Part shown: positions 46,818 through 49,193 of the stretch, piece after piece
Position numbering within the stretch: the stretch's first letter is position 1
Layout: each line of letters starts with the position of its first letter
Notes under the pieces: model-generated
What the model was told of the DNA's origin: nothing
The model's input: the letters and a program-made list of their open reading frames with translations, nothing else
Databases searched by the model: none
Translations under genes and position numbers: made by a program
Assembly: GCF_022812285.1 (NCBI RefSeq)
Contig: NZ_CP093300.1
Coordinates: 4,725,171 to 4,789,170 of the forward strand
Source: Alkalihalobacillus sp. LMS39
Lineage (GTDB): Bacteria; Bacillota; Bacilli; Bacillales; Bacillaceae_F
Reading direction: 5' to 3'
Length of the DNA stretch: 64,000 bases

Positions 46818-47003
46818 AATCGGTCATCTGTTCCGCTATTTCAAGAAAAAGTTAGGTTTTTCCGATGCTTACGGACATCTATTCCGTTAAATCATGAAAA
46901 TGGAATCTTTCTATTTCAAATATAAAGCAGTAACGGAATAGATGTCCGAACAAAATAAAAATTGACAGTATTTTTATGAAATAGCGGAACAAATGTCCGG
47001 TAC
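46818..47003. repeat. R1 repeat copy F
   Basis: Four units start near 46820, 46871, 46931 and 46982, two forward and two inverted. It ends seven bases from the acyltransferase stop codon and precedes that gene's terminator. The rest of 46520-46817 holds only the mqo promoter region. Confidence 0.9.
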
Positions 47004-47009
47004 GAAGGA

Positions 47010-47594
47010 CTACTCTGCTTTCTCATAAGACAAACATTTTTTTTGATAATAAAGAAGCATTTCATTACTCATCATTCTTTCAATATCAAAGACGACAGGA
47101 ATCAAAACAGACTCATCAGATTCAAATGCTTCTCCTCTTTGTTCATTACCAAATCCATATAATATTTTTAACATCCGAGCAAGTTTCTTATCAATTAAAG
47201 CGACATAATATTTAGGTGAATACGTTTTTGCATGGTCATAAATGATGTCGATTAATCCTTCAAAAAAACCTTTTCGTTGAAATGTCTCATGAATACATAG
47301 CTTGTCGATTTCCCATGTTCTCGTTTGGTATTTTCTAATATCATCATATAAGGAAAATTTAGCTCTAGAAGGTCCTTCAACAGTACTATGTGGATTTTTT
47401 GGGTCATAAGGGATAAATTCTATAGTTCCCACTACTTTATTAGGAAGTAAAGGAATTTTACTAGGAGTGAGTAGATTATATCGAATTCCTTGTTCAGCAT
47501 AGGGATCATTTATCCAACCCTTTTTAGAACACGTATATTCCCAGACTTTTGCAAAATTCTTTTGTTGCCTATTCGTTCGAACAACTTCAAACAT
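47010..47594 (-). CDS. GNAT-fold acyltransferase, autoinducer-synthase-like
   Basis: This 194-residue protein resembles GNAT enzymes of the N-acyl amino acid/acyl-homoserine-lactone synthase kind. RTWEIDKLCIHETFQRKG shows the core strand with acidic residue, followed by the CoA or acyl-carrier loop QRKGFFEGL. The sheet-completing YYVALIDKKLARMLKILYGF comes next. AGGAGG lies six bases before the ATG at 47594; another ATG abuts it at 47597. The gene follows the 44-residue peptide gene by 70 bases with a hairpin between, so the peptide is a possible substrate. The acyl donor and acceptor are unknown. Confidence 0.7.
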   Translation of the reverse strand: MFEVVRTNRQQKNFAKVWEYTCSKKGWINDPYAEQGIRYNLLTPSKIPLLPNKVVGTIEFIPYDPKNPHSTVEGPSRAKFSLYDDIRKYQTRTWEIDKLCIHETFQRKGFFEGLIDIIYDHAKTYSPKYYVALIDKKLARMLKILYGFGNEQRGEAFESDESVLIPVVFDIERMMSNEMLLYYQKKCLSYEKAE

Positions 47595-47621
47595 CATGTA
47601 CCTCCTAGATAAGAAAAATTC

Positions 47622-47662
47622 ATGTAAAAAGCAGAGCTTTAAGAAAAGTGCTCTGCTTTCAG
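47622..47662 (-). terminator. Hairpin between peptide gene and acyltransferase gene
   Basis: On the minus strand GAAAGCAGAGC and GCTCTGCTTTTT pair across about twelve bases. Partial read-through here would give far more peptide than acyltransferase. Confidence 0.7.
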
Positions 47663-47664
47663 GT

Positions 47665-47799
47665 TTAACTATCCAAAGGGTCTTGTGGTAAATCAGGATT
47701 AACTGGATCTGGATTTTTTGGTGGCTTTTTGTCGTGAAATTTAAAAGTCATACTTACACTTAATACTTCTACCTTTGGGCTTGACCATTCTTTTTTCAT
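47665..47799 (-). CDS. 44-residue precursor-like peptide with lasso-type leader
   Basis: The ATG at 47799 (AAAGG ten bases upstream) opens 44 codons. Residues 1-18, MKKEWSSPKVEVLSVSMT, match the leader pattern of paeninodin-family lasso precursors: W-x-x-P-x-(V/L)-E-x-L-x-V, then T near -1. Residues 19-44 are rich in Lys, Pro, Asp and Asn (FKFHDKKPPKNPDPVNPDLP and then QDPLDS). No lasso cyclase, protease or recognition element gene adjoins it. The next gene is a GNAT-type acyltransferase. Two identical palindromes upstream suggest tight regulation. Whether it is modified, exported or a signal is unknown. Confidence 0.65.
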   Translation of the reverse strand: MKKEWSSPKVEVLSVSMTFKFHDKKPPKNPDPVNPDLPQDPLDS

Positions 47800-47831
47800 T
47801 ATCATCTAACCTTTCTTTATTATGTCTTTTG

Positions 47832-47868
47832 TTCTTTATAAAGAGCACAATGTGTTCTTTATAAAGAA
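47832..47868. promoter_or_regulatory. Tandem palindromic operator upstream of the peptide gene
   Basis: TCTTTATAAAGA at 47833-47844 and TTCTTTATAAAGAA at 47855-47868 are perfect palindromes with centres 23 bp apart, about two helical turns. They lie 33-70 bases before the peptide start and look like a double repressor site. Confidence 0.7.
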
Positions 47869-48030
47869 TTTATACTACCCAAGCCACTTTGTCAATACAT
47901 TTTTTCAATTACTTTCTGTTGTATAGTTCTGCATTTTTTTACTAGCAACCAAAATAAATATTTTTCCCTCTATAAAAGTCACTTTTCCTCATGTTATAAT
48001 AAAGGAAAAATTTTCTATTCAACGGAGAGA

Positions 48031-48990: not shown

Positions 48991-49011
48991 TTCTTATCAA
49001 ACTTTATCGGA

Positions 49012-49193
49012 ACGGACATCCATTCCGCTATTTCATCAAATTCGAGGGTTTTCTCTGTTCTATCGGACATACGTTCTGCTATTTACCCAAATTTGCGATT
49101 AAATCCTTCCAAATCGCTACGTTAACGGAACCAGTGTCCGTTAACAATTGAGAAACGTTGTTTCTTCTTAAAATAGCGGAACAGTTGTCCGTG
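49012..49193. repeat. R1 repeat copy G
   Basis: Four units start near 49014, 49064, 49123 and 49173, two forward and two inverted. It lies between the VOC terminator and the merR promoter. Confidence 0.9.

Follow-up and report, generated by a model that had tools for sequence, protein, structure and literature searches.

A peptide-GNAT gene pair with a paeninodin-type leader in Alkalihalobacillus: a candidate acylated linear RiPP preceded by SinR-like boxes

The Locus

The window analyzed here is a stretch of 64,000 nucleotides from Alkalihalobacillus sp. LMS39, whose genome consists of one contig of 4.85 Mb, and it features a short peptide gene next to a gene for a GNAT-family acyltransferase. 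The precursor peptide gene is located on the minus strand at 47665..47799 and encodes 44 amino acids, or 46 if a possible in-frame ATG at 47805 is used. It is recognized by the adjoining GNAT gene and by its match to NCBIfam NF033524 (lasso_PadeA_fam), which at 36.1 bits lies over the cut-off of 27 and bears out the lasso-type leader claimed in the preliminary description of this DNA. The leader, MKKEWSSPKVEVLSVSMTF (47743..47799, minus strand), features a WxxP motif and the conserved penultimate Thr and scores 40.0 bits with a leader profile. The core, KFHDKKPPKNPDPVNPDLPQDPLDS (47668..47742, minus strand), begins with Lys1, encoded at 47740-47742, and ends in Ser. The leader/core border is a presumed one, placed by analogy with paeninodin. 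The GNAT gene (47010..47594, minus strand) encodes 194 amino acids, or 195 if started at 47597, and is identified by sub-threshold Pfam matches.

The two genes are separated by a hairpin (47628..47659, minus strand) with a perfect 10-bp stem formed by 47628-47637 and 47650-47659, a folding energy of -15.0 kcal/mol and 4 T within the next 10 bases. In the corresponding gaps of related loci a hairpin reaches -11 kcal/mol in 10 of 16 foldable gaps and is not conserved in the other 6. The hairpin proposed earlier as attenuator-like is thus a putative attenuator or terminator at most, since a terminator scan restricted to loops of 3-8 reports no entry at this position. Upstream of the peptide gene a promoter-like TTGACA-17-TAAATT (47867..47895, minus strand) agrees with 10 of 12 consensus positions. 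The match is weak by itself because shuffles of the region yield a mean of 1.6 such matches; a promoter upstream of the peptide is plausible from the sequence.

The same region contains two unstranded 16-nt boxes with a spacing of 23 bp. The upper box, GTTCTTTATAAAGAAT (47854..47869), holds a perfect 14-nt palindrome and overlaps the -10 region (second hexamer), and the lower box, GTTCTTTATAAAGAGC (47831..47846), holds a perfect 12-nt palindrome and has one mismatch to GTTCTYTNNARAGAAY. Describing both as perfect palindromes was thus right for the upper box and slightly generous for the lower one.

Of the named relatives, the nearest one found is Alkalihalobacillus bogoriensis (L009). Between the two, the peptide DNA (0/141 differences) and the gap with the hairpin (0/67 differences) are identical, the neighbor genes that were compared share 93-99% identity and the 3' half of the GNAT gene shares 84%. 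The operator/box region is 89% identical, which is below the neighbor genes. A short dispersed repeat of the CGGACATCTATTCCG type, arranged in inverted pairs, flanks the pair at 46821-46999 and at about 49000-49190, and it is also present in A. bogoriensis.

Conservation of the Pair

Homologues of the GNAT are found in 45 of 397 genomes of the order (E ≤ 1e-5). The 22 closest (E ≤ 1e-19) are adjoined by a same-strand peptide with a paeninodin-type leader in 22/22 genomes, the peptide being 5' of the GNAT in 21 genomes and 3' in one (G099), and none of the remaining 23 matches (E 2.9e-17 to 9.7e-6) is adjoined by a PadeA match. The peptide therefore belongs to one GNAT subfamily. The dedicated pair suspected in the preliminary description is upheld, and GNAT homologues that occur without the peptide, named there as a point against it, are found only among the distant 23 of 45 and not among the 22 close ones. 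A GNAT gene adjoining a RiPP precursor, the arrangement of selidamide loci, is accordingly present in every genome with a close GNAT, and a generic housekeeping enzyme is rejected in view of the peptide beside all of the close homologues. The 22 genomes span 9 genera and 8 families, and the significance of tests between groups of genomes is therefore overstated.

A class-wide profile search matches 10 of 398 genomes, 4 with close and 6 with distant GNATs, and the 6 distant loci feature no leader-profile match. A plasmid search gives one distant match (26.7%) in Pontibacillus, and one scan of viral contigs yields no relative. A GNAT tree of 21 rows, with three loci missing, has 3 of 18 inner branches starred, at which level the older gene neighborhood is not resolvable. 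Separately, one genome (G279:C1:673348-673641) features a GNAT match of which only an open frame of 122 aa is left. A PadeA match is located 25 kb away and no adjoining peptide was found, which looks like joint loss of peptide and GNAT.

The Core Peptide

With the leader profile, 133 distinct paeninodin-type peptides were gathered from 142 loci at scores of at least 16, the top rejected match scoring 8.6. The start of the core was defined as two residues after the conserved Thr. The set includes 21 distinct GNAT-linked peptides, genome G006 being absent because its peptide is the same as that of the window, and 108 lasso-linked peptides, which are the distinct ones within the fetched loci and not all PadeA places. 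The WxxP leader is present in 20/21 GNAT-linked peptides, and its first residue is W, never Y, in 21/21.

Core position 1 is Lys in 21/21 GNAT-linked peptides and in 1/108 lasso-linked ones, where it is otherwise A (58), N (22), L (15), G (9), S (2) or W (1). All 21 GNAT-linked peptides also end in Ser, which is the target of paeninodin kinases. Since Lys1 is fixed beside the GNAT and rare beside lasso enzymes, the simplest reading of the sequences is that Lys1 would be the target of the GNAT; a Lys or Orn in the core is also what a selidamide GNAT acts on. The sole Lys1 among the lasso-linked peptides is an exception to this rule. It is the peptide KGHKPWKPGHGHSDSDSHSDSGGPGIGLS at L148:3031 (G128), which belongs to a lasso cluster although its genome has no GNAT match, and it is possibly another linear product or a relic. 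A natural control for the rule is found in G121, where a PadeA-type peptide occupies the corresponding position, preceding an EpsA-like gene. No GNAT goes with it, and its core starts with Asn and ends with Ile. Two loci of one genus (L164:7509 and L165:6339, one in each of two genomes) feature a second, Cys-containing peptide with a paeninodin leader directly 3' of the GNAT. The cores of these second peptides start with Phe and Thr, and they were left out of the Lys1 count.

The GNAT-linked cores contain 19% Pro, are also rich in Gly, Asp and Lys, and have no Ala or Arg. An acidic residue at core positions 7-9, as needed for ring closure, is present in 3/21 of them and in 91/108 lasso-linked cores, and the window core has no acid at position 7, 8 or 9. 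These features bear on the alternative that the peptide is an ordinary lasso precursor placed away from its cluster and cyclized in trans, with the GNAT as a late decoration. That reading would explain the shared leader family, the C-terminal Ser and the presence of cyclase-like genes in the same genome, but it is very unlikely given the missing ring acid, the very Pro-rich core and a Lys1 at the position where 106/108 lasso-linked peptides have A, N, L, G or S. On the mostly missing ring acid together with Lys1, a lasso structure of the core is rejected.

The GNAT Enzyme

The Pfam matches of the window GNAT are FeeM (20.5 bits), Acetyltransf_1 (17.6) and Acetyltransf_5 (16.4), every one below its cut-off. 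Among 19 members of the family Acetyltransf_5 is matched by 13, FeeM by 9 and Acetyltransf_1 by 7 (FeeM and Acetyltransf_5 at E ≤ 0.05). The 22 close homologues all share 16 invariant positions, which include WEID. A PDB profile search with the 19 GNATs gives no match up to E 10, and an AlphaFold model made from two sequences has a pLDDT of 38.9 and is unusable. Because of the sub-threshold Pfam matches, the lack of a PDB match and the unusable model, long-chain acylation by this enzyme is put forward as a preference. The autoinducer-synthase kind to which the GNAT had been assigned is weakly supported, given the sub-threshold FeeM match and the empty PDB profile search.

Most GNATs are acetyltransferases. 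It is possible, though rather unlikely, that this enzyme adds only an acetyl group to Lys1, so that a capped linear peptide and no lipopeptide would be made by an otherwise identical pathway. The matches to the two acetyltransferase families across the GNAT family agree with this, as does albusnodin, a lasso peptide that carries an acetyl group on a Lys (PMC9266682). Long chains are favored by FeeM, an N-acyl amino acid synthase family, which is the top Pfam match of the window protein and is also found in 9 of the 19, and by the known GNATs that act at Lys1 of a RiPP core, which are described as adding long chains (PMC13060382). The GNAT NpuN attaches long acyl chains to the Lys1 side chain of nostolysamides (PMC13060382). 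Acylation in the manner of the selidamides, suggested in the preliminary description, remains likely, and the fixed Lys1 adds weight that was not available then.

Lasso Enzymes Elsewhere in the Genome

No cyclase, B1 or B2 gene is found beside the window pair. The earlier statement that no lasso enzymes adjoin the peptide is thus true at the locus, but the genome features a complete-looking lasso cluster, which is found on the same contig at 1.58 Mb; the pair is at 4.77 Mb. This cluster contains two cyclase-like genes, two precursors, an HprK-like kinase, a PqqD-type RRE, a B2 protease, a nucleotidyltransferase and an ABC exporter, of which the exporter and the first cyclase were named by eye. 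No PqqD-family match other than this RRE is present in the window genome. The lasso B and C genes that the preliminary description had suggested looking for elsewhere in the genome therefore appear to exist, and their enzymes are probably used in trans and without cyclization, not as part of a lasso pathway for this peptide.

The pair and the lasso enzymes occur together. A lasso B2 is encoded in 21/22 genomes with the pair, and a second PadeA peptide is present in 21/22, compared to any PadeA match in 67/375 other genomes. The co-occurrence test mixed the presence of B2 and PadeA, and PadeA alone gives the same 21/22 versus 67/375. In four genomes (G309, G246, G330 and G060) the pair is located inside the lasso operon, between the nucleotidyltransferase and the exporter. 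Paeninodin RREs prefer a WxxP leader (PMC13381572), paeninodin B1 binds its leader with an affinity of about 5 nM and delivers it to B2 (PMC5067487), and the paeninodin kinase requires little besides a C-terminal Ser (PMC8498205). Because of the co-occurrence, the pairs inside lasso operons, the WxxP motif, the binding by B1 and the loose needs of the kinase, our best guess is that the peptide is probably processed in trans by the lasso enzymes of the genome. One genome stands against trans processing: G008 has the pair and features no B2, no PqqD-family RRE and no other PadeA peptide, and its kinase is a weak match of 27% only.

SinR-Like Boxes

The preferred site of SinR is described as two GTTCTYT sequences in inverted orientation (PMC3163267), and the palindromes at the promoter, which have this layout, look like SinR operators. 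Across the 4.85 Mb of the genome, GTTCTYTNNARAGAAY has a single exact match, the box at 47854. When one mismatch at most is allowed, there are 38 strand-wise matches genome-wide and 62 for the reversed control, and single hits mean little because the control gives more. Clusters of boxes are found at the peptide promoter, at a sinI/sinR/slrR-like locus and at the lasso cluster. A further box pair (2005915/2006178) precedes another gene.

Across the pair-carrying loci with their own promoter, 16 of 17 feature at least one box within 300 nt, with 27 sites in all. Markov shuffles give an expectation of 1.7 sites across all 21 loci, and the mean over 209 permuted half-sites is 2.7. Among the permuted forms, GTTCYTT equals the real half-site at 27 sites and four others give 24-25; four of these five differ from the real half-site only in the position of Y. 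Boxes are absent at L169 and at the four loci inside lasso operons. For lasso precursors, which are mostly located behind the cyclase gene, 13 box sites compare with 8.3 expected. The promoter is probably regulated, as was suggested earlier.

SinR and SinI are also encoded in the window genome. A SinR homologue shares 65% identity with a B. subtilis SinR sequence, and its locus includes an SlrR-like protein and two SinI-domain proteins. The SinI domain is over its cut-off in three adjacent proteins, and the SinR and SlrR candidates fall below the cut-offs of the NCBIfam SlrR and SinI models. Additionally, SinR-like boxes precede two paeninodin-type leaders with Gly-rich cores (L175:8953 in G121 and L135:3019 in G202). 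Neither peptide has a GNAT or lasso enzymes within 2.5 kb, and the G121 peptide is located ahead of eps genes.

The Exopolysaccharide Neighborhood

The surroundings of the 21 distinct loci fall mostly into two kinds: 9 are directly ahead of epsA-epsB-epsC homologues and 7 are in or beside a lasso operon. Of the others, L178 is near SlrR-like and exporter-like genes and four, including the window, stand alone. The eps operon of B. subtilis is not known to include a modified-peptide gene ahead of it. In G044 the peptide, the GNAT, the eps genes and a lasso cluster follow each other in that order over about 38 kb (genes named by eye). In the window genome the lasso cluster follows on directly from the eps operon. 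The product of the epsA of this operon has a Wzz domain, and a box, GTTCTTTATTACGAAC, is located 137 bp before the gene. In G309 (L160:11004-17393) the lasso cluster with the pair is followed by SipW-like and TasA-like genes, the SipW-like gene being 5 kb from the pair and next to the TasA-like gene; no SipW-like gene was recognized by eye beside the window pair. The TasA naming was done by eye with no NCBIfam match, and the protein is found in 1 of 8 genomes searched.

The peptide had been guessed to be a signal or an antimicrobial. Because its usual neighbors are exopolysaccharide genes, a role in biofilms appears at least as likely. Within the peptide loci and neighborhoods covered here, no support arose for a stand-alone quorum signal. 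The neighborhood also bears on a further, very unlikely reading, in which the GNAT is a self-resistance enzyme that inactivates a toxic peptide inside the producer. GNATs are able to serve that role (PMC13060382), but Lys1 is invariant in the partner peptide, unlike in lasso peptides, and both this and the eps linkage in 9/21 loci fit a co-made product better than immunity.

Proposed Pathway

Our explanation, which we consider on balance probable with modest confidence, is that the pair makes a linear RiPP of the SinR/eps program that is processed in trans by lasso B1 and B2 and acylated on Lys1. SinR would repress the promoter through the two boxes, so that the peptide would be made with exopolysaccharide during biofilm building. 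The GNAT would acylate Lys1, most likely on the side chain and with the leader still attached, as NpuN does in nostolysamides. The B1 (RRE) and B2 (protease) of the eps-linked lasso cluster would bind and cut the precursor in trans and so free a core with Lys at its start, and no cyclization would follow. The HprK-like kinase of the lasso cluster would probably phosphorylate the C-terminal Ser. The pair, its leader, the Lys1 rule, the C-terminal Ser, the boxes and the linkage to eps and lasso genes are seen in the sequences themselves; the product may in addition have a role outside the cell.

A more specific product can be imagined, though we regard it as unlikely: a membrane-anchored tether of biofilm polysaccharide, in which a linear peptide rich in Pro, Gly and Asp would be fatty-acylated on Lys1 at one end and would have at the other a C-terminal phospho-Ser that is given a sugar by the nucleotidyltransferase of the lasso cluster. 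If true, this would be a further product class on the paeninodin leader machinery within the same SinR/eps program.

Comparison with Known Systems

Among the open-access papers listed in literature searches, no description of a peptide-GNAT system of this kind was found. The closest publication, the 2026 paper on linear polyphosphorylated peptides, or LPPs (PMC13381572), does not contain the words GNAT, acyl, lipid or SinR. The best reading is that the pair makes a linear RiPP that combines a paeninodin leader with modification by a GNAT, which would be a conserved variant. The analysis adds four points to the preliminary description: the Lys1 rule, lasso processing enzymes that are probably borrowed, control of the SinR type and linkage to eps. 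The system would give GNAT-modified RiPPs a further leader class, for which Lys1 would be a simple substrate rule, and it would suggest that one RRE/protease pair serves two product types. In PMC13381572 the roles of paeninodins and LPPs are called unknown and a biofilm role is offered as speculation only; a peptide-enzyme pair located ahead of eps genes, which keeps SinR-type boxes even in other places, makes this question testable.

The paeninodin family (PadeA, NF033524) shares with the pair the leader with WxxP and Thr, the C-terminal Ser, often the same operon neighborhood and likely the B1/B2 enzymes and the kinase. The pair differs in Lys1, in mostly lacking a ring acid at positions 7-9, in lacking a cyclase beside it and in having a GNAT partner. 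In selidamides and nostolysamides a GNAT also adjoins a RiPP precursor, and the nostolysamide target is likewise Lys1 of the core (PMC9505594, PMC13060382). Those systems are described as having Nif11/NHLP leaders, often lanthionine rings and, in NpuN, a tandem GNAT, whereas the system described here has a paeninodin leader and a GNAT of 190-220 aa.

LPPs are linear, use lasso-type recognition and are located near lasso clusters and polysaccharide loci (PMC13381572), features that the pair, with its proposed linear product, would share. They have YxxP leaders, an RRE of their own, a SipW-like leader peptidase, a kinase and a nucleotidyltransferase (PMC13381572), in contrast to the WxxP leader and GNAT found here. 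Reading the peptide as an LPP is rejected on account of its leader, which has W and not Y throughout the group.

The inverted GTTCTYT boxes at the promoter and the eps neighborhood are shared with the SinR-controlled eps operon of B. subtilis (PMC3163267). Albusnodin resembles the pair in that a GNAT-type enzyme goes with a lasso-type precursor in which a Lys is conserved, and it differs in being a true lasso peptide, in using Lys10 and in having the cyclase inside its cluster (PMC8498205, PMC9266682).
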